DNA of 64,000 nt, taken from positions 1-64,000 of the IMG/VR virus record IMGVR_UViG_3300017746_000002. One strand, 5' to 3'. The notes below the pieces were generated by a model, which saw only the letters and a list, made by a program, of their open reading frames with translations, was not told the DNA's origin and made no database searches. Origin of the DNA: a virus. This document shows positions 40,301-58,529 of the stretch, in pieces; position 1 is the stretch's first letter; every line of letters starts with the position of its first letter. The position numbers and the translations under genes were made by a program.

Positions 40301-42754
40301 TGCATTACTTATACCAACTAATTCATTGAGTTTTTTTATTAGTTTATTTACCATTAATAATTGATTCTTAGTTAAACCAGAATCTTTCCCTTGTAAGTTG
40401 TGTAGACCTCTATAACTCTCAACAAACTTTTGCCATCCTAGAATCTTTCCTATATATTCTGGCTTTCCAAAATTATCTGGATCTGTTGCATATTCCTTAA
40501 AGTTTTCAATAGTTCTTAATGACGCTGTTATTATGTCCATGTATATTGTTTTAACCTTTTCAGGATTCTCATATACTTCTCCAATTAGAGCTCTTGTTAC
40601 AGAAATTTCTTCCAGGATCTCTTTCTTACCTTTATCTAATGAGATATAACCTCTAGTATTAGAAAGAACTTCCTGTGATGTCATTAAACCTTTATCAAAC
40701 TTAGTAAGAGCTTCAAACAAAGCATCATAAGTATCATAAGAATAATCTTCTTCATTTTCAGGTAATGCTTCTTCTTCAGTTAAGAAATCTTCTTTAGCTT
40801 CAGGAGCTTGTTCCATTTCTAATATTTCTTCAATAGTAGTTTGTTCTACAGAATCAATATCTAATGGAGCAATTTTTTCTACTTGCATTTTATTTACAGT
40901 AGATTTAACAGGTGTTATGCCTTCTATAGTATGGGTATTACCTTCTGCATTAATATTTATTACTAAACTGTTTTCTGCTAACTTATATCCCATATTCTCA
41001 AGAAGTCTTCTTTGTAATGCAGAACGTGTATCATTAAGTATTTTTGTTGAAACACCTTTTTCAAATAGTTCTGACTCAGTAGATATAATATCTTGAGAAT
41101 ATGCTGTTGAAAAACTACTAAGTCCACTAATAGATAAACTTATTGGTGTAATTACTCCGTTAACATCTACTTTTAATAAATCAATGGTGTCTGCAATACC
41201 GTTCTCAGAGTTACCAATAACTACATTAGGAACAAATACACTCCTATCATCATGAAGACCATACCCATGTACAATTGCACTTAGTTGACCCATTAATCTT
41301 TTAGCTGCTTGATCATTAAAATAATCAAAACTTAGATCTTCAACTTCTGTTTGAGTAGTTAACCCTGTAAGTAGAGTATGAAAATCAGTTCTTATTTTTC
41401 TATTAACAGAATCAGTGCTGCCTAGTATAACTTCTTCTGTGCTTTTAAATTTTATACTTGCATCATCTACATCTTTATACTTACCATCTTCTAATGTAAT
41501 TCTATTTAATCCTAATATGTCATGTTCAAACTTATCAGACTTTAAATTATTAAATAAATTCTCTACTATTGCTACTTGAGTAGGATTAGCGTGTTTTTTT
41601 ATAGCATCAAGATTACTCTTTGCCTGCGGTGTTAATGAAAACATTACTGTTGGGCTAACACTTTTAACTAGATTAAACTTTAGTTTATCAGTGTTTAATA
41701 TCTTTGCAATATCAGATAATGTAGCCGTAGAGTTAATATATTCTGTTTTTAATGGTAATCCTTGCCCTACATGTTTTCTATAGTAATCACCAACTATATC
41801 TTTAAACCACTTTAAGAACTCAATAATATTATTATACCAAGCCCTACTAGGTGTTGACTCATATTCTTTATTGAAATGTCTAACTAGTGATTGTGTAACT
41901 AATTCTAATGCTCTTACCTTTTTTGAAAATCCTCTTTTGTACGTATCTTCAATCTGTTGATTTAATACAGGGAATGTTTTTTTTGCTTCTGCATGTAATT
42001 TATTGAACAACTCTTGATTATCTAAAAATAAAGATTCAACAAAAGGATGTAACACTTCTTCTACTGCTGTATCTTTTGTTACTCTCCCTTTTATAAGTAT
42101 AGCTGTTCCATCATAGTAAAAGCTTTTTACTTTTTTAAATTCTGTCTTAGTTGGTCTAGCTTGTGCAGGTAGTGTGCTTAAAAAAAACTCAGCTTCTTTC
42201 ACACCCATAACTTTAACCTTAAGTCCAGGAAATTTTTCTACAAGACTATCTACTAACTGTAATATATTTGTTTGATCTTTATACTTTTTACCAGAATATG
42301 GTGACTCAGATATAATATCTTTAGGATTAAATAAACCATCATCAAAAAATACCTCATATGTTTTACCACTTCTAGTTGGTTCAATTCTTATGTAATCTTG
42401 AAAACCATGGTGTAAAAGATAGTTTCGTATTAATAAGTAATTATACTTAGCCCTTAACATATTACCTGTCGTTTCACCAGGTGTTGTGTTTTGTACAAAA
42501 TATCTACCGTCAACTTTTGCAATTAACTTTTTCTTTTTTAAGTTTCCATATAAAGAATTTTCAAAGTTCTTTTTTTCTAATGAAAAATATGCTTTCCTAT
42601 CTGCTAATAAGTCTTCTACTTCCATTACTGAAGGTATTAAATCATTTTTAGAAGCAGCTTGGTAATTAGTAATCAAAGCATCAACAATCATTTTGTCTTT
42701 ATACTTATCTTCTAAAGCTTTATATTCTTTTGTATTTACATTAAAACACGCCAT
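37325..42754 (-). CDS. 1809-residue giant internal virion protein
   Basis: Part of the giant-protein block typical of crAss-like and similar phages, likely packaged and ejected with the genome. Two enzyme-like remnants are visible: 'VEEVLHPFVESLF' around H236 resembles a zincin HExxH in which the first His is replaced by Glu; and 'GIADTIDLLKVDVNGVITP' near 515-545, with 'LQRRLLENMGYK' further on, has the rhythm of a PD-(D/E)XK nuclease that has lost its D-x-K. The C-terminus is helical, with a hydrophobic segment ('LGLFITTIIVRNLLVKLF') and an Asp run. It is 1 bp from the polymerase-like gene. Confidence 0.7.
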   Translation of the reverse strand: MACFNVNTKEYKALEDKYKDKMIVDALITNYQAASKNDLIPSVMEVEDLLADRKAYFSLEKKNFENSLYGNLKKKKLIAKVDGRYFVQNTTPGETTGNMLRAKYNYLLIRNYLLHHGFQDYIRIEPTRSGKTYEVFFDDGLFNPKDIISESPYSGKKYKDQTNILQLVDSLVEKFPGLKVKVMGVKEAEFFLSTLPAQARPTKTEFKKVKSFYYDGTAILIKGRVTKDTAVEEVLHPFVESLFLDNQELFNKLHAEAKKTFPVLNQQIEDTYKRGFSKKVRALELVTQSLVRHFNKEYESTPSRAWYNNIIEFLKWFKDIVGDYYRKHVGQGLPLKTEYINSTATLSDIAKILNTDKLKFNLVKSVSPTVMFSLTPQAKSNLDAIKKHANPTQVAIVENLFNNLKSDKFEHDILGLNRITLEDGKYKDVDDASIKFKSTEEVILGSTDSVNRKIRTDFHTLLTGLTTQTEVEDLSFDYFNDQAAKRLMGQLSAIVHGYGLHDDRSVFVPNVVIGNSENGIADTIDLLKVDVNGVITPISLSISGLSSFSTAYSQDIISTESELFEKGVSTKILNDTRSALQRRLLENMGYKLAENSLVININAEGNTHTIEGITPVKSTVNKMQVEKIAPLDIDSVEQTTIEEILEMEQAPEAKEDFLTEEEALPENEEDYSYDTYDALFEALTKFDKGLMTSQEVLSNTRGYISLDKGKKEILEEISVTRALIGEVYENPEKVKTIYMDIITASLRTIENFKEYATDPDNFGKPEYIGKILGWQKFVESYRGLHNLQGKDSGLTKNQLLMVNKLIKKLNELVGISNAQSPSDKGIFDASIRNYVRALVKSKSQRDFTEEELNEIMTTAKDIGVVDEAVSDMNTSSDPISALMAKIWKRDRQIVLDRVARRAPRIKAASLKLKKLGNEDFMWMIETDENGIPTGRYVKEIGKQYYEKRKVLRDKLYDEDGKYKTYRLIDPENLDNAKPEDIAYNKQLFQDKRDYRDYMKAERFGAAGPRDGKFHRYSQKFKDAREKHEVWFQEPESEFGYWVRRNSVSDKDWNDYRAKYYDSFDYEKAITDSDGIPTGGIVISHMSAPKRTFREIRKRAADGTEMRSDQWLKLHDPKTELERAQLEFYQMWMDVYEGELLNKLPDNIRMLGRLPVMEGVQMKGLKNKSTMVGRMWASMKRGTSNLINPTIKLKKTFTDENGNIITDSLPLMYVGSIRTEQQLIDIQNQIDAANTEYAQATTAAEKNKINKKLKVLRGEQNKIESRPEATNLNLNLDEVLLKFSAMAENYEVMSQAEDTYTAMMKVIQDRSEATYDEDGNLVPGEKTKEESRRYRRARKWMKMTYYGNDQDTLNFFEKMTKGLINQTSLAYVGFNVFGNLNNYLFGRLSNSIETLGSRHFDGSQMAYTLAEFNGRALQDAFSRLAEMTDSNSKWKPANFSSKYLASVDFFRMLDDKSDLREQTKGDKESLWRRLTNWGFFLQDAGEFNVQSKIGNVIVRSHTAINSKTGETKSLYDALIFNRETGALEMEEGYDQVQMYGRDKIMEWNDDARYEIRNNIREVNKIIHGNYAYEDRMVIQSHALGQLAAQFHKWVVPSIQTRFRPEYFDENLGYTEGRYLSFWNFMKYFYKNINELGSIHENYKKHHGVKGKQKLQNAYRTIGELGLFITTIIVRNLLVKLFEDDDDDSEVKKKLENVLVYQADRLRKELVTFNPVPGMGGYQQMMQLFKSPIAASRTLGELGQAMEVTVGTGLSYAFLDDEAFSETSYVYKRGDRKGKMKLGKEWGDALPILYTINRWKGYERITDFYIK

Positions 42755-42755
42755 A

Positions 42756-45700
42756 TTATATATTACATTTTAGGTTTTCCATAAATTTGCTAATTGATAT
42801 ATCCACTTTAGCATTAGTTTTATTATAAGCTGCAATTAGATCTTGTGCATTATAAATCTTCATAACATTGTTTGCACCCAATTTTTCTTCTCCAGTTAAT
42901 TTATCCCATTCTTTTTCAAGTTTAGAATCATTATCATTTCCTTTAGCTTGTTGACTTATACTTCCAGACAAAAATGATACTGGATCTACTACAGTACTAC
43001 TTTTTTCTTCAGCATTATCTTCTTCCAATCTAAAATCTTCATTTTCTTCATCAATTTCTTTATCAGATTTTAAATCATCAAGTGTAATATCAACTTTTTC
43101 ATTTTCAGTTTCTTCAGTTGCAGTTTCATTACTTTGTGCTTCAGGTGTAAAATTATCAATTGCAGTTTCAGCCGCTTGTTCTGGATCTATAACTGAATTA
43201 AATATGTCTTTTTTATCTTCTATATATTTCTTTATTTCTTTTTCAGCAGGTAGCTTTCCAAAAACTAAACCTATTGCATTTTGAGATAAAGATCCTACTT
43301 GTTCTATTTCAACATATTCTGCATAATTTCCAACCGCAATGTTGTTTTCATTATCTATAATCTCATAAGGATCTGTAATTGTTTTATTATCAATACCCTT
43401 ATAAGAAACAAGCTTATATAGTTTTTTATCTTTTTGTCCAAATTTACCTACACCTATACCCATTTCCATAACATATGGAAACTGTATTAGCGTAAGAGTT
43501 TTTGTTTTTGATACAGCTTTCATTGTTTTAAATCCAGATCCTCTTCTAATTATATAAATATTTTTTTGTATTTGATCTGATTTATCACCTTTTTTAACAC
43601 CTTTAAAAATATCAACAGTAACTGTTTTTTCTACATTATCTCTAACAACAGGATTTTTCTTTAAATTTTTATTTATAGCCTCTTGAGTTTTAATACCTGC
43701 TTTTGATATAATAGTTTGCTCACCATTCTCTAAGTTGTTATATACCATATCTTTCTGCAAAGATAATAATGTTTTCTTAGTAACCTTATCTATATTAGTA
43801 TTTGTAGAAAATCTAAAATCATTTCCTCTCATTAGCTCTGTTCTGATTTCAGTCCCATTTGAAGCATAATCAGTTGCAGTATTAATAAATGATGCTCTTA
43901 TTAACTTTTCTAATAAGATCATTTCATCTTCACTTCCTCTTTTCTTAGCAAGTTTTGTTTCAATAACTTTACCATGGGCTTCATCTATACCGTGTTTTTT
44001 ATATTCCTTGTCTACTTTTTTATCAAACTTACCTTTTCTAAGAACTTGAAATGCATGAATAACAGAACCGTATTCCTTAGTCTGATATTTAAACACTCTT
44101 TGAGCAAGATTTGATAAAACTTGTGTAGTTTCATCACCTTCTGCAACATCATAATCTACTAGTATAGAACGTTCTGGTATTACTATTTCTTCTGTATTAT
44201 ATGAAGATACTTCTCCACCTACTTTTGTACTTTTTAAATCATATCCAGTCTTACTATGAGACATGTAATCTTCAAGAAATTGTGTAGTAAGCTCTTCATA
44301 AGATACTCCAAATAATTTTTTATATTTATTATTATTAATCTTAGGGTCTTTCATTAACAAATGAATATCATTAATGGTATTTATTATATCATCAGTAACA
44401 GAAGCTGGTAATGCTGACATAAAAGTATTAGGACCATAACGGAAACCGTCTTTTACTAATAAATAGTTTATCATGTGCACCGCATCATGATGAGTATTTG
44501 GATCTTGATATAATTCTAAAAAACTATTTTGTATTCTTGATAACTCTGCATCATCAATTCTAGTCCATGTATTTGAGTTTATTTGTGATATACCTGAAAA
44601 ATTATCTTCATTATTAGTTTTTCTTAAGGTTATATACTTATCTATAAAATGATTATTCTTTTTAGTACTACTTAAATATTTCGTTACTCTTTCAACTACA
44701 GTATCAACACTTAATGCACCTTGAGGCATAGAAGGGAAAATTTTATTGTCATATATCATTCCATTTTGTAATGAGGCTCCTTGCCATGATTGATATGAAT
44801 TATTTAAAGTCCTATGTATATAAGATTTAGTATTTAAATAAGCAATAAGATCTACTGATATGTTTCCTAATTTACCAGGTTTAGTATATGTAACTTCAAG
44901 ATTTTTTATTAGAGTATTATATATCTTTTCAAATGGCTCAGTTCTTTGTAAGAATACTGCAGGTGCAAGGTAATCATAAGATTCTCTAAATAATTTATAA
45001 TTAGTTGCATGTATGTTTCTACCTTTTTTAAATATATTTCTAACATCTACAAGTATATCTGTATCTGCCTCAAATTCTTTATTAGTCATTTTTAAACCTA
45101 ACCCAATAGCAGCATCTTCTTTTCTTTGCATTGCTTCTAAGTCTCTACCTAATCCTTTTTGTAGATTAACCAGCTCTGTCATATTTCTTATTGACTCTGT
45201 AATATTGTATGCAATTAAAAACTGATCTATTGCTGCAAGGTCAAATTGTATTTCTTCATCAGACCATTGACCTATCCCAACCAAAGTTACATCTTGAGTT
45301 TTATCTAACTTAGGCGTGCCATCAGTAATAGCATTAAAATGTTTATTCATTCTTGTTAAAGACTCAAGACTAATTACTGGTGTTCTAGTAACTTTTTCTA
45401 ATTCCCCTTTTATTTTTCTTTTTCTAGTTTCTAAAACTGTTTTAATATTACCATCTACTTTTCCATTTTTTAGTTGATCAAAAGCAAAAGCAATTGTTGG
45501 GTGCTTAACTAAAAGAGTAATTGTTTTTATATCTACACCAAGAGCCAACATAGTTGTTACTGTAGCTAATGAATTTTTAGTAAGACCTAACTTCTTTGCA
45601 AGCCTTTCTTTAGCATTATCCGTCATTGCTGTTACTAAAGCAGATACAACAAATTGTTTTCTATATAGATCAGTGCTTTGTTTACCTGTTTTAGGGTCTA

Positions 45701-48700
45701 TAGTATACTCTACACCAAAATCATCATAAGAATAATTATTTCCATTAAGAGATAGACGGTCAAATGTTTCTACACCTTTTCTTTTTTTGCTTCTTAATTT
45801 AATACCGTGCTCCTGAAGAATATTTATAAGGATGTTTGGAAGTACTACAGCACCAATAGATCTTGCACCTTCTTTATTATTATCCCAAGCAGTAATTTTA
45901 CCATTAATATTATTTATATCTATTCCTGTCTCATTAACTTCTTCTGCTAATTCAGGTAATTCTCTTTGTATATATTGCCACGTTCCTTCACCAAATAAAT
46001 CTGTTGCAGCTTCATCAGTTAAAGGTGTAAGTACAGCTGGCTCAGAAGCAATAGCTTCTATTCTACCAGCTCTAGGGTCAGACATACCTTTGTTTCCAAG
46101 CAAAGCAATTTTACTATCTAAGATAACATTGTCTTGTGCTCCTTTATAAGGTTCTCTCATTATTGTTTGATCACCTATAGTGTATGTATGTTTTTTTCTA
46201 TAAGCTTTATATTCTTCAAATGATACTGGTTGACCTAACATAGTCATTGCTTCAGATAACCCTTCTGCTCTTTTAAATAGTTTTTTAGATGTTTCTACAT
46301 TTAAATCTGTGTCTGATGTAAGAAGACCAAACAACTCTATTTTTATTTTTAGTTCTTTATTTTTTAAATATTCTTTTATAAATTCTTCTTTAGCTTGAGG
46401 TGACATATTAGCTGTCTTTTCAGTTACTCCTAGTCTTTCAACGTTTTCTAAAGATTTTTCTCTACGTAAAACTTCTTCAACAGCCATATATAAACTGCTG
46501 TTCTTTTTACCATATTCATTTAATGTGTATTTTATATAATCATAATACGCATCTTCCATTCTTTCAGCAGAACCATATTCTATAAACTCTCCATTTTGTA
46601 CATAGAAGTCTTTAATATGCATATAAAGTTTATCAATATCAAAATCCGCTCCAGATATTTCTACAAGATCTCTTGAAAATATTGCAGATGAACCATAATA
46701 AACAGGTAAGAAATCTACAAGCTTAAGATTAACTGCTGAATGTTTATCTTGTGATGGTATTCTAATACCAAACATTTTAGCAATAGCATCTGGTATATTA
46801 TCTCCTATACTTAAAGGGTTTTCTAGTATAGATTTAAAATGAGGAGGCATTACAAATTCAGTATACTTTATACCAGTAGGTTGATTATTAGAGTCATACT
46901 CCATTACACCAGATCTTAAATGATCTAAATAATATTCATTTCTTTTTAATCCAGAAAAAGTTTCATTGTCTTTATCAGTATATGTTTTAGCTTTTAAATT
47001 TGGATCTAGATTTTTTAAACCTTCCCAATCATTAGATCTAATTACTGTCCAACGTATAGGTACTCCGTCTTTATCAACTGCTTCTACTTTTTTAACAACT
47101 TTAAATCCTGCATCTGAAACTAATGCTGCTGATATTCCAGGTTGTCTTTCTGCTAATACACCTTTACTAAAGAATGCTAAGAATAATTCTTGGAACTTTT
47201 TTACAGTAAGTTGGTTATTTAAATCATATTTTGGTTCACCAAACGCATCCATACCAAAATAATCTAGCATTTGTGATTTTGCTTGTGATGCTTCAAGACC
47301 TTTTATTGCATATTTTAAGAATGCTGTAAGGTTAGTAGTCATTCTTTTACCTGCATCTTTAGCTTTTATTAGTTCATCTTGTGAACCAGCCCAAGAGAAT
47401 ACTAAGTTTCTTCTTTTAAAGAATTCATTCTCAACTCTATCTGACATTGTATTATGAAATAAATTAATAACATCAGCAATAGACATTTCTGTTCCTGCTA
47501 CATTAACTAATTCATCTAACTTCTGTTCACTTGTAATTAAGTTCTTAATTTGACGAGGATCAATAACCTCCACTTTGTTAGAAGGATTAATAAGCTGTAG
47601 TCTCATATACTTAGCTCTAAGATCAGTTGTCATATCATTTGTCAAACTTCTATCATCATATGCAGCTTGTGTATCTTGCATATTCATCTTCATCATCTTA
47701 GATGCTGTAGCAGGTACAGCTATACTTACAATACCGTTACCTTCATTTTCTTGTTCTTGCTCAAACTTTTCTAACTTAACTCTTAAATTGTGTAACTCTA
47801 CTCTTCCCTCTCTTGCTACCATTTCACCATTTCTTTCTATAGATGTAAACTCAGGAGTCAAAACAAATGCTGACATCTTTAAGAATACTTGTCCATCAGC
47901 ATATACAAGTTTTAAAGAGTTCATAATCATATCTTGCTCTTTATAACTAAGTTTATTAAACCCACCAAAGAAATCATTATCAACCTTTACCATATTACCA
48001 GCAACAATCTGTTTTAATATATCATTCTTAGTTTTATTCCATTTACCAAAACCAAACATAAAGTGCTTAAAAGATTTTGTAGTAATATACATTTGACCAT
48101 CTGTTCTATCACCTTCTTGACCTTCTTTTTGTCTGTCTGATTCTATTATAGTATCAAATTCTTTTTTTATTTTTTCATCATTAAATAATAATTGCTTAAT
48201 TATATCTGTCTCATGATTAATACCAATTTCAGGATCACTAATTAAAGAACTAGCATTGGGTCCAGCAGCATTTTGCATCTTAGCTCTTTTAATCTTATCA
48301 ACAGCATCTTTAAGTGAATATGCTTCATCACCAAGAACTAACTGATTAATACCAATAGTGTTAAGTTGGTCATTTAAAAATATTTGTGCTAGATTATAAT
48401 CTAAGTTACCTTCTTCCATATTGTACAGAGACATTAATAGATCTGCTGAATCATTTTGAACTACTTGTATTTTACTGTTATTATCTTCTTGCACTTGACC
48501 TAAACCTTCTGAAATTTCAGTAGATATTTCATCCCATGCTCCTGTTTCTTTAAGAGTAATAATAAACTCATTAACATCTTGCATAGCTCTGCTTCTTACA
48601 GCATCATCACCATTTAACTCATTCCATAATGTATCAAAATCAACCATTTCACCGGTTCTTGCTTTTTCAATAGCTTCTTGTAGACCATCAACTACTGATG

Positions 48701-51700
48701 TATCTACATCCATAGTTTCACCAGTAATAATTTCTATTGCTTCGTTAGTAATTAAATCTTCTTGTGACTCATTAATTTGATCTAACTTATCTTTTAGTAC
48801 TTGAACTAGTCTGTAATCTTCAGCTTCCAAGGCTATGTCTATTCTTTCTTGTAATTCTTCTATAGTTTTAACAGTTATTTGTTTAGTGCTAAGACCAACT
48901 TGAACTTTAGAATCTTTAGATAAAGGAACAAAAGAAAATATATTTCTTGAAGTTGTAGATTTATCATTTAACCATTGTGCATCCTTAAGTAAGTATGTAT
49001 AAAATGTTTTATTACCATTTCTAAAAGAATACATTCTTCTATTCTTATCTTTACGGTTAGTGTATTGTTCAGATGTAAGAATTGAAGTACCCATCTCTTT
49101 CATTAACCTATCTTGTTCTGCATTGGTTATATCACTAAACTTCTTAAAACCTTGGTTGTACATTACAAACTGCATACCTCCAATGTCAACAATAGAATTT
49201 TCTCCAACAGATAGATTAGTTGATACAGCAACTTCACGGGATCTTAATACAGTACTAAGATTACCAGCAATTAGTTCTTCAGAAACTACATCTCCTATAC
49301 TAGGAGCTTCTATATTAATAGCTCTGTTCTTCCTAGCTTTTAATGAGTTTGTTAATTCTGCAACATCATCTATTCTAGTTAAACGCCCTGTATCAGTTCT
49401 ATTATTATCTTTATCTGTATTTCCTAAATAGATACTTTGTTTAGTTCTAGTTTCAGGATTAGCTTCTCTTTGTGCTCTTTCAAAAGATTGTTTAACTATT
49501 GTTTTTCTTTTTTCTACTGCTTCATCAGTTAAAGTTAAACCTTCATCTGACATTTCCACTTGCTTATATATTGCTAACGGTGCAAAATCTCCAGTGTTAG
49601 ATGCTTCAATAACTCTTATAAATATAGGAGCTAATACAAAAGGTTCACCAGTTTCTTTATCATAAAATTTAGGTGATTTATCAGGTGAAGTTCTATTATA
49701 ATAATACAAGTATGTGTGAATTAAACTTAATGCAAATTCTTTAGGTGTTGATGAACCAAACTGAACACCAGGTTTTTGATTAACATCAAGAGCTTTATTT
49801 TCTCTTAATACTCCATTTTCACTTATGTTTAATATACCGTCAGATTTAAGCCCAGAAATTCTCATAGGGTTTATTAAACCTTTTTCCACTATTGTTTGAA
49901 ACTTAGAGTCGTTTAAAAGTACATTATCCTTCATAAAAGGACTCTCTAGTATTTTGTTTGCAACATAGTCTGCCCCTTTCATTTCAATAATCTTTTCTAA
50001 ATGCAGTGTAGGCATTTGATGTGCATATATTAAATTTCCTTTAGGATCTTTAAATACAGTAGCACCAACAGATTCAGAAAATGGAGCATTGTTTATTGAT
50101 ATTTTAATAAGTCTAGATTTTATACCATAGAGTTCATCTGTTTTTTTAGAAGTATCTTCTCCATCTACGTCTTGGTTATCAAGAAATATGTTTTCTCCTC
50201 TGTTAATAGACTTTACTAATTCTTCAATGTCTACTTCTTCTATAGCATCATACATACTAAATGTATCAACTAGCATTTTTTGTTCAGGTGTAAAATTAGA
50301 TTGATCAAGAATATTAGTTAGAACACTATATTCTAAATATAAAGGACTAATGTCCATACCAAGATCAACTCTTAAATCTTCTGCTACTGAACTAGCTCTA
50401 TCAGATAGGTTTGTTTGTTCATCTATTTTAGAAATTGCCATTAATTGAGTTAGACTATTTAATGTTAGTGTTGCATTTGTATTTTCTTCAGAACCAAGAA
50501 CTTTAACTAAGTTATACATTTTATTAAATGAACTAGCCCATTCAGATAGTGTATGATGTGCATCATCTTTAGTAGTAGCAGAATATAAATTTACTACACC
50601 ACTACTATCTTTTTGCCAAAATATGTTATCTACTCTAAAGTTCATAAAACCATTTATAAACTGTTGGTATAATTCAGAGTCTTTTATCTCAGGTAATGTG
50701 TAATTATCATCAAACAATACTGCTGTTTTACCTGCATCATCCATAGCTTTATCAAACAGTCCAATATCTTTAAAGAAATTATCAATAAAGGCTTTACTGT
50801 GTGGGTTTTTTCTAGAATATAACCATGCTTTTTTAATTATCTCTATTTCATTTACTTCATTAGCAACTGCTTTTAGTATACCGTTATATACTCTATGTGC
50901 ATCAACACCAATGTTTAAAAGTTCAGTTTCAGCATCATCAAAATACTTATTACCGTATGTATCTGCTTCATTTAATGTAGTTAGACCAATATATGTTCTA
51001 AGGTCTGGACTTAACATTGATGAAAAACCTCCTATTTCATCACTAGATTTACCCCATTCATTTATAGATCTTACACCATCAGCTTCTAATTCTGCAATAT
51101 CTTCTTCTTCAAGATTTATCTTTTCAGCAATATCAGCAAGCCTTTCATTTACCATGTCTTTAATATCTTCAACTTGATCTAACATTGAATCATACATGTT
51201 CCTTACATGAGGAAGTGTATCTACTTGCCATTCCTCACTTTTTTGCATATAGAAATCTCTATTTGGATTATACATTTCAATTGCTAAGAAGACTACCTTT
51301 TCTAATTCTTCATTTTTATTAAAAACTCCTTCATGATTTCTTTTTCTTTTAAGGTATAGGTTTGTTATACCAGAAACAATAGTATGTTGCTGATCTGCAG
51401 GCATTACATTGTTTATTCTTTTTTCTATAAACTTTCCTTTTTGTGTTTTACTTTCATAACGAATATCTAATGTACCTAATCTAATTGACTTTTTGTATGC
51501 TACAGATGGAACTCCTTCTGCAGCCGCTATAGTAAACTTATTAGTTTGAACACCAGCTCTTTTATATTTTCCACCATCAATATCTTTAAATAATGAATTT
51601 AATTGATATGACTTATCTGCTTTAAATTGTCTTAATACTGCTTTGATAAAGTCTATAATTCTAGTAAACAAACTCTTAATTTCTGTATTTGTTTTAGTAG

Positions 51701-54700
51701 TAGCAGGATTCATTTTAAATTCCTCAAATCTATCTGCCATATACTCCTCAGCTAATATATCAGATAATTCTTTAGTGTTCATCTCTTTATAACCCATATC
51801 TATTAATCTTAAGAAGTCAAATGCTTCTGACTCAGATTTAACAAAGATACCTTTATCTATCTCATATCCTTTTTCAGTTCTATATAATGCTCTAAGTTCT
51901 TTTTTAGCAATACTACTATATTTACTCATCTCAGTATCTGTTAGTAGCGTCCTATATACTGCATGGAATGCTTCATGATATTTAAATGGAGCCATTGCAC
52001 TAGTAGCAACTTCCCCTCCTAAAACGCTATCAAATGCATCAGTTTTTGGATTATATATAGACTGCATAGCTAATTCAAAATAACCTACAGTCATAAATTT
52101 ATCTTTCAGTTTACCAGTAAGATAATTTACATATGCTTCTCCTGATTCATGAAAACCAGTCATATCAGATAGTAATATTGTATCAGGTAGATTTGCAGAT
52201 AACCAATCTCTAAATGTATCTATATCCTCAATATCATTACCATCAAAGTTTCTTGTAATCTTACGTATTTTAAAACTATCTTCAAATGCTTTTTTAACAG
52301 CAGCTTTTAACTCTTGTATTTTAGGATCAGTTATGACAATTTGTTGTAAAACTCTATTTATAGCAATTTTACCATCATTAGTTTCTTCATTATATAATTC
52401 AGCATTACGTGCAATTAACTCAGCTCTTTTCTCAGCTCTTAACTTTATTGTATAATCCTTAAGCTCTCTCTCTAGTCTTGAATGTTCAGCAAGTGCTTTT
52501 TGATTTTCAGCTTCTTTAGGTGTATCAGCAGGTACAGCAGATTGTTCTAACACTTCTATTCTAAGTTCAGCAATTCTATCTCTATATGCTGCTTGAACTT
52601 CTTTTTCAAATTCATCAAGACTTTCTCCTATATTTAATTTAACAGCAATTATTTTTAATTGGTCATTAGAAATATTTTCATAATCATCTAATGCAGCATC
52701 CTGTCTTTGTTCTGGTGTTAATTCTTCAACTACTTCATTATCTTTTTCTCTTTCTCTTTCTGATCTTTCTTTTTCTTTAAGAGCATCAGACTTTCTAATT
52801 ATAGGTGTTGTTAATCTAGATATATTACTTCCTTCTAAGTTTAATGTTATGTAAAAACCTTTTTTAACTTCTGATGTTAAGTTTGTTCTTGCAAGAGACA
52901 ATACATTAAAATCCATATTCTTTTTATTAATAGGATATTTAAATGAATTTTTAGTAGGTTGAAAAGCTTTAAAATTTTCATCAGTTAATGCAGCAATCAT
53001 ATCTTCTGCATTATTCCATTCTTGTACTGCTTCAAAATCTATAACTGATTTTAATCTATGATTTTCTGCTTTATCAGATACATTAAAGTTTCTAATTGAA
53101 ACATTTAAACCTCCTATACTGTTCACGTTAAGTGTAACAAATATACCAGGACCCGCAGCAATAAACATACCAGGTAGATCAAATTCTGAATCAGCAGGTG
53201 ATCCATCCATTAATTCTTTATTCCACTTATCATTAAAAGTAATATCTTCAAAATGATTATCATGTGTATCTTTAGATCTTTCTTTTATACTATTTAAAAA
53301 ACTATCAACATCATCAAGACTCATTGTATCTGGAGTAAGTGTAACAATAGCATATTTACCATTATCTAACTTTACAAGAGCATTATATTTACCTTTTAAG
53401 TTAGGGCTTTTAGATTCTAATTTACTGTAAATAGATATAACCTCTTGATACAATTTTTTACCTGCTGGTTTAGTTGTATCAATATTATTTACTGGATTAC
53501 CTTTTACTTTAGAATAAACCCACTTACCATCTTTGTTTTTGTATTTTGAAGGGTAGTTTCTATTGTAGTCCATAATAAAATATGGAGGTTGACCATCTAC
53601 TGTAATATCTGAATAATCCGCTCCTTCTACATCTGTAACTACATATTTATAATCTAATTCACCAAACGTAGCTCCTTGTTCTCCTTTACCGGTTAACCTA
53701 GTTAATGCTCCTTCTGATAACGTAACTCCAATATCTTCAAGATCTGCTATATCAATAATAACCTCCTCTTGGCCTGATTCATCCAACGTTTTTTGCAAAA
53801 ATTCTTCTATAGCATATGCTTGAACATAATTGTTTTTAATCTTGTCAACTATATTATCTATGTTATCACTTTTATATGTTCTAAATAAATCATATGCTTG
53901 TTGATTAGTTATTTGAAGTGGGTCAATAGTATTACCATTACCATCTAACAATACTACCGAACTTGAACCTTGAAAAAATCCTACAGTTTCAGCAACTAAA
54001 TTACCCTCATCATTTATTTGTTCTGATATTATTTCAACATAAAGTTTTTGTTTTTGAATTCTTATACCAGGATTTTTAGGATCTTCTCCAAATTGAAACT
54101 GCTGAAGTTTATTTACATTAGTTTGTCTATCATCCCATTTAGGACCTCTTCTTATTTTTAGTTTTAATGCTCCCTGCTTTTCAGGACTTAACTCTCTTAG
54201 TAACTTTTGAAGTCTATCATTTGCTTCTTTTATTCTTTTTTCTTTATTTTTTATAGCAAAATCATACTTTGGAATAATTGAAAGAGGTTCCCTAGTTAGT
54301 ATCTTAGATATTCTTGTATCATCATCAATAGTCTCATTCTCAACTAAAGTCCAATTATTAATAAAATCATCTACTTTAATAAACTCTTGATCACTTTTCT
54401 TTTTACTATTTGGATCATATGCAGGTCTTAAATGTATTCCCTTCTTAGTTAGTTTATTACCATGAACCATAAACTTATCACCCGTTTCATTATTCTGTAC
54501 AATATCACCTTTCTTTAAAGATACTTCTTCATTAAGTTCATATCCTTCTTCTTTTTTATCTTGTCTTACTTTTTGATTTCTAGAATTAGTTGCATCTTCT
54601 ACTGAACCATATACATCATCATTAATAGGATCACCATTGTTATCTACAATTCTATACATTTGTACGTCCCCTTCTTCTTTTGAGATAGTAGTTTGTTGAA

Positions 54701-57700
54701 CATTTAAACCAGAAGAATGACCTTTTCCTTTTTTATCTACAACCTTTTTTCTTTGTGTATTTTTTTTAGTATTATATTTTTTAGGAATTATCTTTGTAGA
54801 CGTACCAGTTATTTGTTCAACTGTTGTATCAGTTAGTTTTAATATACTTTGAACATTATTTGTGTCTTCATTAGCCATTAACCACTCATTAAAATCAGCC
54901 TTTTCCCCTTTTGCAAAGGCTGGTAAAAATACTTCTTGATTTAATTTCATAATAGCAAAAGCAACTTTTCTTGCTTTCTTTGAGGCAGTGCTATCTAGCC
55001 AATCTCTTTCTGTCATTGGAGTTCCCTTTACACCTCTTTGATAGGTTCTATATTGTTTTTTTAAGTATTGTTTACTTAATGATACACCAGATTCAAAATC
55101 TATTTTATCATCAACAATTTCTCCTGTTTCTTCATCTACTTTAGGTGTAAAGTTATCATCATAGTTATATTCATCATCTCTTATATCTTCAAAGTCTTCT
55201 TGTTCTTCTACATCAAAAGACTCACTTTCTTTTTTACGTGCTGTATTTTCATAAACACCTATTATGTTTTCTATTTTATCAGCAAGCGCTTTATTTTTTG
55301 GATCAGTAAATATAATTTCACCTTTTTTATTAAAGAATGTGTGTGGCATAGGTCCTTCACCTTTTAACCATTGTTCAACCTCAAACATATCCGGGTATAC
55401 TTCAAGTTTAGATAAAGCATTTAAGACATTATTTTTTTCAGTTTGATCAACATACTTTTCTATTCTTTCTCTAACTCCTCTTTTGTTCTCTTCAAAAGCT
55501 TGTTTAAACTGAACTGTAAACTTATCAGCCATGTCATTCAATTTACCAGGAGACATTATATACTGTATAGCTTTATTATAGTCTTCAGCTCTTCCGTTTA
55601 GGAATTTATAGTCTACAATTTTAAGAAGCGTCTCATCTATTTTATCAGAATTAATAAACTCATCATTAGTATTTGCTACAAATTGTAAGAATTTTACAAA
55701 AGGATCTTTTAAGCTTTTTATATTCTGTTCATTAAACATTCCAAAAGGTTGACCTGGTAAACCTTTAAGTTTTGGAATATTAACCTGCTGATCACTTAAC
55801 ACTCTTTCTCTAATTTCAATAATTACTTTTTCTTGAATAGACTGTTCTTTTTTTCTTTGAGCTTCTTCATCAGGTGTTTCTCCTTCTTTAGGTACAAATA
55901 CTGGAGCTGTTTTCTCAACATTTTTTGGATCTGTTAGTACTCCAAAATAAGTTTGTAATAAAGCTAACCTATCTATTTTATTTTTATTTATGTCTTTTTG
56001 ATCTTGTGTTGTTTCTCCTTCAGTTTCTCCAAAAAGTTTTATTTCTGTTTTTAAAAGATTAATCTCATTTATAAGATCATTCATATTGGTTAGCACATCT
56101 AAATCAGATCTTGATAAATTAGCAACAACAGGATCTGCTGCCATGTCTTTATACATTTGATTTGATCTTTCTAAAGCTCTTTTAAATGTATCTCTTGTAA
56201 ATAATGCAAGCATCTTTGCATGATTAAACGCTGCTTGTTTAATTACTTCTTCATTCCACTCTCTAGATTTTACTTCAAAATCAGAAGGATTATATGGGTT
56301 TATTATTTCGTCATTAAGTTGTTTAAATGACTTTTCTAAACTATCTAGATTAGTCATCATACTATTTATACGTTCTCTGGTTTTACCACTTTTAATTTCT
56401 TCTGCTGTAGCATTTGGAAATGCCTCAGCTAATCCTTGATCATCTAGTTTAAGAAAGTCTTCTAGTTGGGAACGAAACTCATAAGCTTTACCAGAACTTA
56501 ATACTGTGTGTAAATGTTGAAATATTCCTTTATCTTTTGCATCCATAAAGTTTAATACAGATCCTGCCATAGATGCATCAAACATTTCTTCATTAGCCAT
56601 TTTTTGATTTATGGCATTAATCTTATCTGGAGAAAAATATTCTTCAGGATTTTCATATACTTCATTAAGTACTTTTACAGTTTCATTAACATAATCATTA
56701 CGTTCTTTTTCATATTTTGCATATGCTTTTGGATCCATGTATTTTTGATACATCTGTGGTGCAAATTCAAAAACAGCTTTTTGTGGTCCTTGTACTAAAC
56801 CACCCATTAAGAATCCTGACATAAATACTTCAAAACCTTGACCAGACATTTGAGATCCTAGTCCTGCTTTTATAGATGCATATTGTGCATCAAGACCCGC
56901 CATTCCTGGATCCTTATAGATATTACTATAATAATCTTTTGCACCTACTGCAATTGCTTCTTGAAATATTTCTTGAAAACCTTCAACTGAATTTGGTAAT
57001 GTATATCTTAATAATTCACCACCAAATATTTTAAGATTACCATTAAGACCACGTTGTCTAAGTCTTCCTAATCTTGATGTACCACCGTCATAAAACTTTT
57101 TGGTACCTTTTTTACCCATTTGTTTAGCAGTGCTTTCTAATATCTGACTACCTACACCTCTCTTAGTAGCTTCAAGTGCTTTGTTAATTCCTCTAAATCC
57201 TCTTAATGCCCCATCAAATACAATCATGTTTGATGCAAATATTATAGGGAAGTTCCACATTAAAGTAGTAAATGCTGCTTCATCAGACTTCTCTACTATT
57301 TTTGCTATTTCATCTGCTGATGGATCGTTACCATTATTATTTGCTTTATAGTCAGCATAGTGTTCAGAAATAAAATCATTCTTTACCATTCCTGCTTCTA
57401 ACTTACTTTCAGCTATAGCAAGATTAACCATTCTCATATCTCTATAAAATCCTCCTGCTGTTTTTGCAACTTTAGCAGCAGTACTAAGAGCCTTTGCTGT
57501 ATTTTCAGCTGTTTTCCAACTCTTAATTGCTTTATATGTATTAGGTGTAAGTTTATCTGCTGTCCATAAACCAGCTCTTAACCAAAAAGATTTTGCGTCA
57601 TCTGCATTCTTTACTGTTTTTAATAAAGCTTCTGATGCATTTTGTGCGTCTTTAATCTTATCTCCAACTCTACCTAATCTAGCAACGTTATATGCAGTTC

Positions 57701-58529
57701 TACTAGCTACAATTGGAGTAGCACCTCCAAACGTTCCTGCCTCAAGAGCAGCTAATGCAAGTTCTTCTACGGCAATGTTAGATAATATACCAACAGTGTA
57801 ACCAGAGTTTAGCATTAAATTAGTTGCAAAACCACCAACACCTCCTCTAGTAGTATTTCCTATTCTCATTGCCTCAGCAAAATTATCAGCACCTTCTATA
57901 TCTGCACTAAGATAGTTTCCTTGCATTGCATCACCAAGAGCATCATATGTACTCATAAAACCAGTACCAAATACTTTACCAAACTGTCCCCACATTCTTT
58001 GATTATCATCCCACCATGTAGAATTTTCGTTATAATACTCCTCATTATTTCTATAAGGATGAAAACCTAACTTATCAAAATTAGGGTGATTATAAAATCT
58101 ATCAAAATTACTTGATTTAAATCCAAAAGTTTGAACATTGTTTGGAGTAAGTTTATCACTAGTAGTAGATGGTTGTGAATATACCTGATTCATTAACCTA
58201 TCTATATCAGACTCAGAATTTTGAGTTTCTAAACTTTGAAACTTTTCTTCTGGAGATAAGTAAGTTGGAGTATACCCTGTATTTATATAACTACTTGCAG
58301 CATCCATATTAGGAGTCCATCCTGGATTTACTTGTGCAGCTAAAAAGCTCATGTCTTGATCACCAAACAAAGCTTGATCAACGTCAAAGTCTTGTGACAA
58401 TTCTAAATCTTGTTGTGGTGAATCTGTTATTCCAGCAAATACATTAGCGTTAGGTGCTAATGGATCAACAGTTTCCTGTGGTACATTGTTTGGAACAATA
58501 TTTCCTTCTTGTGTAATTTCCTCTGCCAT
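42756..58529 (-). CDS. 5257-residue giant protein with RNA-polymerase-like and metallopeptidase regions
   Basis: The largest gene here. The motif GADFDIDKLY (DFDID at residues 3962-3966, bases 46632-46646) lies after 'RIPSQDKHSAVNLKLVDFLP'. This closely resembles the catalytic DxDxD region of crAss-like virion RNA polymerases, which are injected to transcribe early genes. A zincin site HEAFH (residues 2185-2189) with a later 'EEYMADRF' supplies a metallopeptidase region that might cut the polyprotein. Hydrophobic stretches occur near 225-275, about 430 and about 570, possibly for membrane passage. The rest is long helical, acidic sequence. It is far longer than the roughly 2200-residue polymerase of phage phi14:2. 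No stop or frameshift is seen. Confidence 0.78.
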   Translation of the reverse strand: MAEEITQEGNIVPNNVPQETVDPLAPNANVFAGITDSPQQDLELSQDFDVDQALFGDQDMSFLAAQVNPGWTPNMDAASSYINTGYTPTYLSPEEKFQSLETQNSESDIDRLMNQVYSQPSTTSDKLTPNNVQTFGFKSSNFDRFYNHPNFDKLGFHPYRNNEEYYNENSTWWDDNQRMWGQFGKVFGTGFMSTYDALGDAMQGNYLSADIEGADNFAEAMRIGNTTRGGVGGFATNLMLNSGYTVGILSNIAVEELALAALEAGTFGGATPIVASRTAYNVARLGRVGDKIKDAQNASEALLKTVKNADDAKSFWLRAGLWTADKLTPNTYKAIKSWKTAENTAKALSTAAKVAKTAGGFYRDMRMVNLAIAESKLEAGMVKNDFISEHYADYKANNNGNDPSADEIAKIVEKSDEAAFTTLMWNFPIIFASNMIVFDGALRGFRGINKALEATKRGVGSQILESTAKQMGKKGTKKFYDGGTSRLGRLRQRGLNGNLKIFGGELLRYTLPNSVEGFQEIFQEAIAVGAKDYYSNIYKDPGMAGLDAQYASIKAGLGSQMSGQGFEVFMSGFLMGGLVQGPQKAVFEFAPQMYQKYMDPKAYAKYEKERNDYVNETVKVLNEVYENPEEYFSPDKINAINQKMANEEMFDASMAGSVLNFMDAKDKGIFQHLHTVLSSGKAYEFRSQLEDFLKLDDQGLAEAFPNATAEEIKSGKTRERINSMMTNLDSLEKSFKQLNDEIINPYNPSDFEVKSREWNEEVIKQAAFNHAKMLALFTRDTFKRALERSNQMYKDMAADPVVANLSRSDLDVLTNMNDLINEINLLKTEIKLFGETEGETTQDQKDINKNKIDRLALLQTYFGVLTDPKNVEKTAPVFVPKEGETPDEEAQRKKEQSIQEKVIIEIRERVLSDQQVNIPKLKGLPGQPFGMFNEQNIKSLKDPFVKFLQFVANTNDEFINSDKIDETLLKIVDYKFLNGRAEDYNKAIQYIMSPGKLNDMADKFTVQFKQAFEENKRGVRERIEKYVDQTEKNNVLNALSKLEVYPDMFEVEQWLKGEGPMPHTFFNKKGEIIFTDPKNKALADKIENIIGVYENTARKKESESFDVEEQEDFEDIRDDEYNYDDNFTPKVDEETGEIVDDKIDFESGVSLSKQYLKKQYRTYQRGVKGTPMTERDWLDSTASKKARKVAFAIMKLNQEVFLPAFAKGEKADFNEWLMANEDTNNVQSILKLTDTTVEQITGTSTKIIPKKYNTKKNTQRKKVVDKKGKGHSSGLNVQQTTISKEEGDVQMYRIVDNNGDPINDDVYGSVEDATNSRNQKVRQDKKEEGYELNEEVSLKKGDIVQNNETGDKFMVHGNKLTKKGIHLRPAYDPNSKKKSDQEFIKVDDFINNWTLVENETIDDDTRISKILTREPLSIIPKYDFAIKNKEKRIKEANDRLQKLLRELSPEKQGALKLKIRRGPKWDDRQTNVNKLQQFQFGEDPKNPGIRIQKQKLYVEIISEQINDEGNLVAETVGFFQGSSSVVLLDGNGNTIDPLQITNQQAYDLFRTYKSDNIDNIVDKIKNNYVQAYAIEEFLQKTLDESGQEEVIIDIADLEDIGVTLSEGALTRLTGKGEQGATFGELDYKYVVTDVEGADYSDITVDGQPPYFIMDYNRNYPSKYKNKDGKWVYSKVKGNPVNNIDTTKPAGKKLYQEVISIYSKLESKSPNLKGKYNALVKLDNGKYAIVTLTPDTMSLDDVDSFLNSIKERSKDTHDNHFEDITFNDKWNKELMDGSPADSEFDLPGMFIAAGPGIFVTLNVNSIGGLNVSIRNFNVSDKAENHRLKSVIDFEAVQEWNNAEDMIAALTDENFKAFQPTKNSFKYPINKKNMDFNVLSLARTNLTSEVKKGFYITLNLEGSNISRLTTPIIRKSDALKEKERSEREREKDNEVVEELTPEQRQDAALDDYENISNDQLKIIAVKLNIGESLDEFEKEVQAAYRDRIAELRIEVLEQSAVPADTPKEAENQKALAEHSRLERELKDYTIKLRAEKRAELIARNAELYNEETNDGKIAINRVLQQIVITDPKIQELKAAVKKAFEDSFKIRKITRNFDGNDIEDIDTFRDWLSANLPDTILLSDMTGFHESGEAYVNYLTGKLKDKFMTVGYFELAMQSIYNPKTDAFDSVLGGEVATSAMAPFKYHEAFHAVYRTLLTDTEMSKYSSIAKKELRALYRTEKGYEIDKGIFVKSESEAFDFLRLIDMGYKEMNTKELSDILAEEYMADRFEEFKMNPATTKTNTEIKSLFTRIIDFIKAVLRQFKADKSYQLNSLFKDIDGGKYKRAGVQTNKFTIAAAEGVPSVAYKKSIRLGTLDIRYESKTQKGKFIEKRINNVMPADQQHTIVSGITNLYLKRKRNHEGVFNKNEELEKVVFLAIEMYNPNRDFYMQKSEEWQVDTLPHVRNMYDSMLDQVEDIKDMVNERLADIAEKINLEEEDIAELEADGVRSINEWGKSSDEIGGFSSMLSPDLRTYIGLTTLNEADTYGNKYFDDAETELLNIGVDAHRVYNGILKAVANEVNEIEIIKKAWLYSRKNPHSKAFIDNFFKDIGLFDKAMDDAGKTAVLFDDNYTLPEIKDSELYQQFINGFMNFRVDNIFWQKDSSGVVNLYSATTKDDAHHTLSEWASSFNKMYNLVKVLGSEENTNATLTLNSLTQLMAISKIDEQTNLSDRASSVAEDLRVDLGMDISPLYLEYSVLTNILDQSNFTPEQKMLVDTFSMYDAIEEVDIEELVKSINRGENIFLDNQDVDGEDTSKKTDELYGIKSRLIKISINNAPFSESVGATVFKDPKGNLIYAHQMPTLHLEKIIEMKGADYVANKILESPFMKDNVLLNDSKFQTIVEKGLINPMRISGLKSDGILNISENGVLRENKALDVNQKPGVQFGSSTPKEFALSLIHTYLYYYNRTSPDKSPKFYDKETGEPFVLAPIFIRVIEASNTGDFAPLAIYKQVEMSDEGLTLTDEAVEKRKTIVKQSFERAQREANPETRTKQSIYLGNTDKDNNRTDTGRLTRIDDVAELTNSLKARKNRAINIEAPSIGDVVSEELIAGNLSTVLRSREVAVSTNLSVGENSIVDIGGMQFVMYNQGFKKFSDITNAEQDRLMKEMGTSILTSEQYTNRKDKNRRMYSFRNGNKTFYTYLLKDAQWLNDKSTTSRNIFSFVPLSKDSKVQVGLSTKQITVKTIEELQERIDIALEAEDYRLVQVLKDKLDQINESQEDLITNEAIEIITGETMDVDTSVVDGLQEAIEKARTGEMVDFDTLWNELNGDDAVRSRAMQDVNEFIITLKETGAWDEISTEISEGLGQVQEDNNSKIQVVQNDSADLLMSLYNMEEGNLDYNLAQIFLNDQLNTIGINQLVLGDEAYSLKDAVDKIKRAKMQNAAGPNASSLISDPEIGINHETDIIKQLLFNDEKIKKEFDTIIESDRQKEGQEGDRTDGQMYITTKSFKHFMFGFGKWNKTKNDILKQIVAGNMVKVDNDFFGGFNKLSYKEQDMIMNSLKLVYADGQVFLKMSAFVLTPEFTSIERNGEMVAREGRVELHNLRVKLEKFEQEQENEGNGIVSIAVPATASKMMKMNMQDTQAAYDDRSLTNDMTTDLRAKYMRLQLINPSNKVEVIDPRQIKNLITSEQKLDELVNVAGTEMSIADVINLFHNTMSDRVENEFFKRRNLVFSWAGSQDELIKAKDAGKRMTTNLTAFLKYAIKGLEASQAKSQMLDYFGMDAFGEPKYDLNNQLTVKKFQELFLAFFSKGVLAERQPGISAALVSDAGFKVVKKVEAVDKDGVPIRWTVIRSNDWEGLKNLDPNLKAKTYTDKDNETFSGLKRNEYYLDHLRSGVMEYDSNNQPTGIKYTEFVMPPHFKSILENPLSIGDNIPDAIAKMFGIRIPSQDKHSAVNLKLVDFLPVYYGSSAIFSRDLVEISGADFDIDKLYMHIKDFYVQNGEFIEYGSAERMEDAYYDYIKYTLNEYGKKNSSLYMAVEEVLRREKSLENVERLGVTEKTANMSPQAKEEFIKEYLKNKELKIKIELFGLLTSDTDLNVETSKKLFKRAEGLSEAMTMLGQPVSFEEYKAYRKKHTYTIGDQTIMREPYKGAQDNVILDSKIALLGNKGMSDPRAGRIEAIASEPAVLTPLTDEAATDLFGEGTWQYIQRELPELAEEVNETGIDINNINGKITAWDNNKEGARSIGAVVLPNILINILQEHGIKLRSKKRKGVETFDRLSLNGNNYSYDDFGVEYTIDPKTGKQSTDLYRKQFVVSALVTAMTDNAKERLAKKLGLTKNSLATVTTMLALGVDIKTITLLVKHPTIAFAFDQLKNGKVDGNIKTVLETRKRKIKGELEKVTRTPVISLESLTRMNKHFNAITDGTPKLDKTQDVTLVGIGQWSDEEIQFDLAAIDQFLIAYNITESIRNMTELVNLQKGLGRDLEAMQRKEDAAIGLGLKMTNKEFEADTDILVDVRNIFKKGRNIHATNYKLFRESYDYLAPAVFLQRTEPFEKIYNTLIKNLEVTYTKPGKLGNISVDLIAYLNTKSYIHRTLNNSYQSWQGASLQNGMIYDNKIFPSMPQGALSVDTVVERVTKYLSSTKKNNHFIDKYITLRKTNNEDNFSGISQINSNTWTRIDDAELSRIQNSFLELYQDPNTHHDAVHMINYLLVKDGFRYGPNTFMSALPASVTDDIINTINDIHLLMKDPKINNNKYKKLFGVSYEELTTQFLEDYMSHSKTGYDLKSTKVGGEVSSYNTEEIVIPERSILVDYDVAEGDETTQVLSNLAQRVFKYQTKEYGSVIHAFQVLRKGKFDKKVDKEYKKHGIDEAHGKVIETKLAKKRGSEDEMILLEKLIRASFINTATDYASNGTEIRTELMRGNDFRFSTNTNIDKVTKKTLLSLQKDMVYNNLENGEQTIISKAGIKTQEAINKNLKKNPVVRDNVEKTVTVDIFKGVKKGDKSDQIQKNIYIIRRGSGFKTMKAVSKTKTLTLIQFPYVMEMGIGVGKFGQKDKKLYKLVSYKGIDNKTITDPYEIIDNENNIAVGNYAEYVEIEQVGSLSQNAIGLVFGKLPAEKEIKKYIEDKKDIFNSVIDPEQAAETAIDNFTPEAQSNETATEETENEKVDITLDDLKSDKEIDEENEDFRLEEDNAEEKSSTVVDPVSFLSGSISQQAKGNDNDSKLEKEWDKLTGEEKLGANNVMKIYNAQDLIAAYNKTNAKVDISISKFMENLKCNI

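Follow-up and report, generated by a model that had tools for sequence, protein, structure and literature searches.

The giant virion RNA polymerases (vRNAPs) of the Crassvirales and their associated cargo proteins follow a rule which appears to be new: the facing ends of neighbouring proteins in the order 47-50-49 (numbered as gp47, gp50 and gp49 of phage crAss001) carry a cysteine when the corresponding genes are separate and lack it when these are fused. As judged by sequence comparison, this applies across the Crassvirales families sampled. The best explanation, which we infer from this distribution and regard as fairly probable, is that the cysteine pairs join the cargo proteins at their ends, probably through disulfides, in the way that gene fusion does covalently.

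Genomic setting of the giant reading frame

The window, i.e., the whole 64,000-nucleotide stretch of DNA that was analysed, belongs to a 123,269-bp IMG/VR contig. It is assigned to the Crassvirales by virtue of a portal, a major head protein, and an RNAP gene block of the crAss type. The portal matches phrog_6547 (E-value 1e-88) and, in the tblastn search, the portals of crAss-like phages, the closest named one being Leptolyngbya phage Lbo-JY46 (34%), and the head protein matches phrog_11589 (E-value 1e-28); one Pfam model of the large terminase was tried on this genome and gave no match.

Positions 42756-58529 (minus strand) form a single open reading frame encoding 5257 aa from an ATG codon, without an in-frame stop under the standard code (table 11). 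Profile and fold matches indicate that its product is a gp47-gp50 fusion, with an N-terminal cargo/zincin part followed by the catalytic part of the vRNAP. The frame itself and the positions of the motifs DFDID (residues 3962-3966), RIPSQDKHSA (starting at residue 3923), and HEAFH (residues 2185-2189) were re-found exactly as given in an initial annotation of this DNA, made from the letters alone. The hydrophobic segments which that annotation had also listed turned out to be weak: the best 19-residue Kyte-Doolittle window of the 5257-aa chain reached 1.54 and several of the peaks lay inside the folded RNAP core, and hence no transmembrane segment is supported.

The adjacent minus-strand gene (37325-42754) encodes a 1809-aa homolog of gp49, the third vRNAP-associated protein (tblastn E-value 1e-14 to crAss001 gp49, with matches to similar proteins). 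On the other side of the giant frame, a minus-strand gene for a 1123-aa protein (58538-61909) was placed in the gp46 position by gene order only, as in crAss001, Dulem 41, and other phages.

Three large proteins rich in cysteine are encoded on the minus strand of the same genome, namely at window positions 22216-28011 (81 cysteines in 1931 residues; this protein has a Laminin_G_3 domain), at 28016-30871 (51 in 951), and at positions 83334-93077 of the full record (174 in 3247). Unlike the cargo, which is almost devoid of cysteine, they resemble fibre or surface proteins rich in disulfides. The full record also encodes, at positions 110077-115446, a protein of 1789 aa whose N-terminal region includes a hydrophobic stretch; it has only two cysteines (residues 176 and 190) and no PHROGs match.

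Identity of the RNA polymerase

The 5257-aa frame encodes a crAss-like virion RNA polymerase of the gp50 type, in agreement with the initial annotation. In the tblastn search of annotated phages with residues 3601-4600, the best 40 of 106 records were crAss-like, many of them annotated as RNA polymerase (best E-value 5e-11). The profile of the core, built from 42 sequences, was aligned with that of Crassvirales gp50 over 782 columns (hhalign probability 100, E-value 2.6e-41). Moreover, the AlphaFold model of the core (residues 3340-4340, positions 45510-48512, minus strand) reached a pLDDT of 80.4 and a pTM of 0.82, and the Foldseek search with this model identified 6vr4, the vRNAP (gp77) of phage phi14:2, as the sole PDB match below an E-value of 0.001 (E-value 1.8e-23, probability 1.00). 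It had been stated beforehand that the absence of a double-psi barrel around DFDID, or of similarity to crAss-like polymerases, would speak against this assignment; the modelled core matched 6vr4 overall, and the next fold matches were QDE-1 and then multisubunit RNAPs.

Motif, alignment and profile point to DFDID (46632-46646, minus strand) as the catalytic DxDxD of the beta-prime-like barrel. Its context, SGADFDIDK, is invariant in 42 relatives, and the RIPSQDKHS block ahead of the catalytic loop (residues 3923-3931, positions 46737-46763, minus strand) is mostly invariant in 42 relatives as well. No piece of the 5257-aa protein had a Pfam or PHROGs match above chance, because the protein is too divergent; PDB sequence searches with the single sequence and with a 7-sequence profile did not retrieve 6vr4, which was found by the fold search alone.

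For crAss001, mass spectrometry (MS), in work that compared reduced and non-reduced virion samples, identified gp47, gp49, and gp50 as virion cargo, and their partial unfolding is expected, with a channel of under 50 angstrom (PMC10172136). Homologs of the catalytic protein are known to be packaged and to act on early genes; by analogy, that of the window phage would be packaged in the virion and injected.

Fusion architecture among relatives

Both motifs (HEAFH-type and DFDxD) were found in one frame in 73 of the 79 related IMG/VR loci, mostly in ORFs of 4283-5471 aa (the complete ones mostly 4283-5174 aa), and with the fusion so widely kept, an assembly artefact was ruled out as the source of the long frame. 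Among the remaining six loci, four frames were ended by the end of the contig or locus, one (L152) was interrupted near residue 3090, and one (L147) was devoid of the N-terminal part. As the closely similar L153 is intact (4742 aa), the interruption in L152 looks like a sequencing error or a real polymorphism. The 3288-aa protein of L147 lacks the N-terminal ~1200 residues including HEAFH, and directly ahead of it an ORF of 1056 aa occupies the position of gp46; part of the 47 region may have been lost here by natural deletion.

The point of fusion between 47 and 50 was estimated at residues ~2370-2415 (positions 51285-51422, minus strand), a stretch without cysteine, using two independent anchors: 184 residues counted from HEAFH, as in crAss001 gp47, lead to residue 2369, and residue 1 of crAss001 gp50 extrapolates to residue ~2415.

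The prediction that relatives divide the chain among several genes was borne out. In crAss001, PhiCrAssBcn1, DAC15, phi14:2, cr111, and Dulem 41, gp47, gp50, and gp49 are encoded separately; Carjivirus, crAss002, cr11, jaberico, and cr127 have a 50-49 fusion; and the window phage, Suoliviridae, and Flavobacterium phage Fpv3 have a fusion of 47 with 50. Since the 47-50 fusion is kept in the window clade and recurs in Suoliviridae and Fpv3 (4287-5443 aa), it is not new, and the frame, described at first as extreme, is ordinary for its branch and of a known kind, RNAP genes of up to ~6000 aa having been mentioned in a review (PMC10136315).

Cysteines at the facing ends

A conserved single cysteine at the extreme C-terminus was first noticed in the alignment of gp47 ends. 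In the window phage, the 5257-aa chain contains one cysteine, Cys5255 (42765-42767, minus strand), at position -3, and the 1809-aa gp49 homolog also contains one, Cys3 (42746-42748, minus strand; the protein begins with MAC). For the comparative analysis, an end was called inner if it points towards the adjoining protein of the 47-50-49 series, and a cysteine was scored when present within 12 residues of the end. Among 21 phages, a cysteine was present at 53 of 54 inner ends and at 0 of 40 outer ends, and internal cysteines amounted to 0.088%; in the only exception, crAss002, the start is annotated 32 aa too early and MSC follows. The phi14:2 set exemplifies this: gp78 (1797 aa) has one cysteine, which is its last residue, gp77 (2180 aa) two, at residues 3 and 2179, and gp76 (1421 aa) one, at residue 3.

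After dereplication of the window clade at 80% core identity, the C-terminal cysteine of the fused chain was present in 40 of 41 sequences and the N-terminal cysteine of gp49 in all 40, compared with 0/30 and 1/39 for the outer ends. The one fused chain without it (L171) is frameshifted, which looks like a sequence error or a polymorphism. Only two internal cysteines were counted in 133,050 residues of this clade, none of them at the 47/50 junction.

A second sample consisted of 80 loci fetched with the profile of other Crassvirales. Here, the cysteine was present at the C-terminal end of 50 in 59 of 61 cases and at the N-terminal end of 49 in 60 of 61, and it occurred at one of 57 C-terminal ends of 49, that one belonging to a middle piece. 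Five loci were first listed as having a separate 47 and no cysteine at the N-terminal end of 50: four of them (L241, L253, L256, and L263) were reassigned as 47-50 fusions by ORF layout, and in the fifth (L235) the cysteine follows a later ATG.

To these counts, a tree of 110 cores was added; it was computed quickly under a single model, and a few of the junctions were assigned their state manually, on the basis of ORF layout and not of cysteines. In this set, the N-terminal end of 50 had a cysteine in 52 of 54 loci with a separate 47 and in none of 48 with a fused one; in both exceptions (L235 and L243) a downstream ATG is followed by the cysteine. Similarly, the C-terminal end of 50 had it in 89 of 92 loci with a separate 49 and in none of eight with a fused 49. 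The tree contains seven supported independent changes at the 47/50 junction and three at the 50/49 junction, and the cysteine moves along in essentially all of them (sign test on independent pairs, p = 0.016 for 47/50; the three 50/49 pairs are too few for it).

Unusual gene layouts were also inspected. The all-fused 47-50-49 protein of L263 (5642 aa) has no cysteine, and that of L283 (5677 aa) has a single internal one and none at its ends. In L275, where gp49 is split over two genes, the middle piece (1167 aa) has cysteines at positions 4 and -2. The misfits were L244 (with a cysteine only at position -27), L227 and L240 (neither end), and L293. In the last locus, the RNAP block is distributed among at least five ORFs, one of which (871 aa) has cysteines at positions 3 and -1 and another none at its ends.

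The cyanobacterial phage Lbo-JY46 (L101, 2355-15261) encodes two adjacent giant proteins with one cysteine each, which is the last residue in the protein of 1552 aa and residue 4 in that of 2748 aa; this pair was left out of the counts, as RNAP homology of the larger protein could not be demonstrated. In the isolate genomes of Spirosoma oryzae (L200) and Spirosoma terrae (L203), crAss-like RNAP genes of 3356 and 3581 aa, followed by genes of 1512 and 1518 aa, respectively, were identified. Their end cysteines obey the rule. The genes sit on contigs of 229 kb and 574 kb from cultured bacteria, which suggests that a crAss-like element is integrated there and that distant relatives have Bacteroidota as hosts.

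No prior mention of the end cysteines was found in the literature searched, the scope of which did not extend to Drobysheva 2021 and Yutin 2018.

A proposed model of end-to-end coupling

It is a general puzzle of injected phage proteins, those of crAss-like phages included, how hundreds of kilodaltons of folded polymerase could pass through a channel narrower than 50 angstrom in an ordered manner and in the right ratio. We propose, with somewhat more belief than doubt, that the Crassvirales deliver their multi-protein RNAP as a coupled train, in which reversible cysteine links between 47, 50, and 49 do the job of gene fusion. The three proteins would then form one ordered series, in which gene fusion or else a facing cysteine pair secures each junction. 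In the window phage, the 47/50 junction would thus be a peptide bond and the 50/49 junction would be Cys5255 facing Cys3.

The links, most likely disulfides, would be formed after the virion leaves the reducing cytoplasm of the host and be reduced again on arrival. In the meantime, the linked proteins would travel through the tail as one thread, of fixed order and ratio, and reduction in the new host would release the chains. Homologs suggest that ejection most likely takes place in a partly unfolded state, with subsequent refolding for transcription of the early genes. Inter-protein disulfides do occur elsewhere in crAss001 virions.

The scarcity of internal cysteines would prevent wrong cross-links, and yet several are present in some relatives (cr7 and loci with 10-40 of them), so wrong pairing is not always avoided. 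The vRNAP of N4-like phages has no cysteine, which was proposed to matter for tail passage (PMC3715699), and the Crassvirales may have removed internal cysteines for the same reason.

A less likely role of the facing cysteines, to which we would give perhaps a minor share of belief, is binding of a metal or cluster, or a place at a non-covalent subunit interface. Two facing ends sharing a site would be expected to show the same cysteine distribution, and assembly does occur in the reducing cytoplasm. However, there is one cysteine per end and no conserved histidine or further cysteine is evident in the listed termini, so that a metal site would need two more ligands from elsewhere; furthermore, the rule vanishes on fusion, although a fused chain could keep such a site. 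A different kind of thiol chemistry would be a further possibility.

The cysteine rule predicts which of the protein ends touch and accounts for fusions arising in different places. The coupling model offers a testable idea for the ordered delivery of giant injected proteins. If true, it would describe a coupling device that is both simple and reversible and whose like was not found in the literature searched (Drobysheva 2021 and Yutin 2018 being outside its scope).

The N-terminal part and its zincin-like domain

The N-terminal ~2370 residues of the 5257-aa chain are the counterpart of gp47, the cargo protein with the zincin. The presence of a protease, deduced earlier from HEAFH, is consistent with the alignment of this region with the C-terminal domain of gp47 of other Crassvirales (hhalign probability 96.3, E-value 1.9e-9), and one gp47-type protein is labelled in GenBank as "RNAP associated protein fused to zincin protease". 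The predicted metallopeptidase-like domain covers residues ~2165-2330 (51540-52037, minus strand). In 42 sequences, both the putative zinc-binding HEAFH (51963-51977) and a Glu-Glu pair (residues 2261-2262, 51744-51749), a candidate third zinc ligand, are invariant. The PDB profile search with the domain gave a weak match to Pro-Pro endopeptidase (PPEP) 6fpc (E-value 0.015). The fold search with the modelled domain (local pLDDT around 90) found nothing significant, the probable reason being the low confidence of much of the model.

It had been suggested that the chain is cut by its own protease, and a self-processing polyprotein, in which the internal zincin cuts near the 47/50 junction to yield the protein set of the split relatives before packaging, has several points in its favour: HEAFH and Glu-Glu are invariant in the window clade, the domain lies directly ahead of the estimated junction, and 47 and 50 are separate virion proteins in split relatives. 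We nevertheless find this improbable. HEXXH is missing from phi14:2 gp78 and from gp47 of cr111, cr106, and DAC15, and all four retain the terminal cysteine, which makes the protease motif less conserved than the end cysteine. In addition, relinking of the cut ends would predict a junction cysteine in the fused forms, and the window clade has none. The conserved fusion and the cysteine-ended junctions rather point to a chain that stays joined.

Controls for composition and gene borders

The window phage is not cysteine-poor, as the other proteins of its genome contain 2.0% of this residue. Among other large ORFs of the GenBank loci, a cysteine was present in the first 12 residues in 2 of 56 and in the last 12 residues in 5 of 56. 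Neither the 1123-aa protein in the gp46 position nor crAss001 gp46 contains any.

The terminal cysteines might also have been inherited without a linking role (e.g., as a relic of gene fission) or result from DNA signals that overlap where two genes meet; the related phages do share ancestry, and many of the gene pairs are separated by just a few bases. Such an origin seems very unlikely. The cysteines are retained in proteins otherwise only ~20% identical, they change with architecture in the independent cases at both junctions, and terminal cysteines are rare in the large control proteins. A signal at gene borders was rejected as the cause, since crAss001 gp47 lies on the opposite strand, convergent with gp50 and not adjacent to it, and still has its C-terminal cysteine, which a DNA-level overlap effect does not explain.

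Comparison with known systems

The vRNAP of N4-like phages (Schitoviridae) is a single chain and represents an unrelated, single-subunit type of RNAP. Like the nearly cysteine-free window chain, it is giant, and it is injected and contains no cysteine (PMC3715699); no end-cysteine pairs were reported for it in the literature examined. Thermus phage P23-45 also has a giant virion protein of ~5000 aa (5002 aa) with an RNAP (PMC10770324); unlike in the window, that RNAP is fused to the tail tape measure of a long-tailed phage. Despite the similar size and the RNAP lying within a virion protein, such a fusion can practically be dismissed for the window frame, as its N-terminal part corresponds to the crAss cargo protein gp47 by position and zincin domain, and the phage is of the crAss type in its portal, major head protein, and order of genes.

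Among the Crassvirales, the polymerases of Intestiviridae and Crevaviridae (Carjivirus gp44, crAss002 gp33, and cr127) consist of the same three modules as in the window; they differ in having a 50-49 fusion and a separate 47, with cysteines only at the C-terminal end of 47 and the N-terminal end of 50. Suoliviridae (cr10, cr50, cr56, cr113, and cr7) and Fpv3 share with the window the 47-50 fusion with a C-terminal cysteine, followed by gp49 with an N-terminal one, although their sequences are very distant, several of them have more internal cysteines, and some of their giant ORFs, unlike that of the window, contain many in-frame standard stops (reassigned code). In crAss001, gp47, gp49, and gp50 form a homologous set with cysteines at the facing ends (gp47 Cys2339 and gp50 Cys5; gp50 Cys2404 and gp49 Cys5), which was seen in virions by MS; in contrast to the window, the genes are separate, gp47 is on the opposite strand, and gp50 has one internal cysteine. 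Finally, phi14:2 shares with the window the fold of the polymerase core (gp77, PDB 6vr4) and DFDID, and its gp78, gp77, and gp76 correspond to 47, 50, and 49, with one cysteine per facing end; there, the three proteins are encoded by separate genes and gp78 lacks HEXXH, whereas the window phage fuses 47 and 50.
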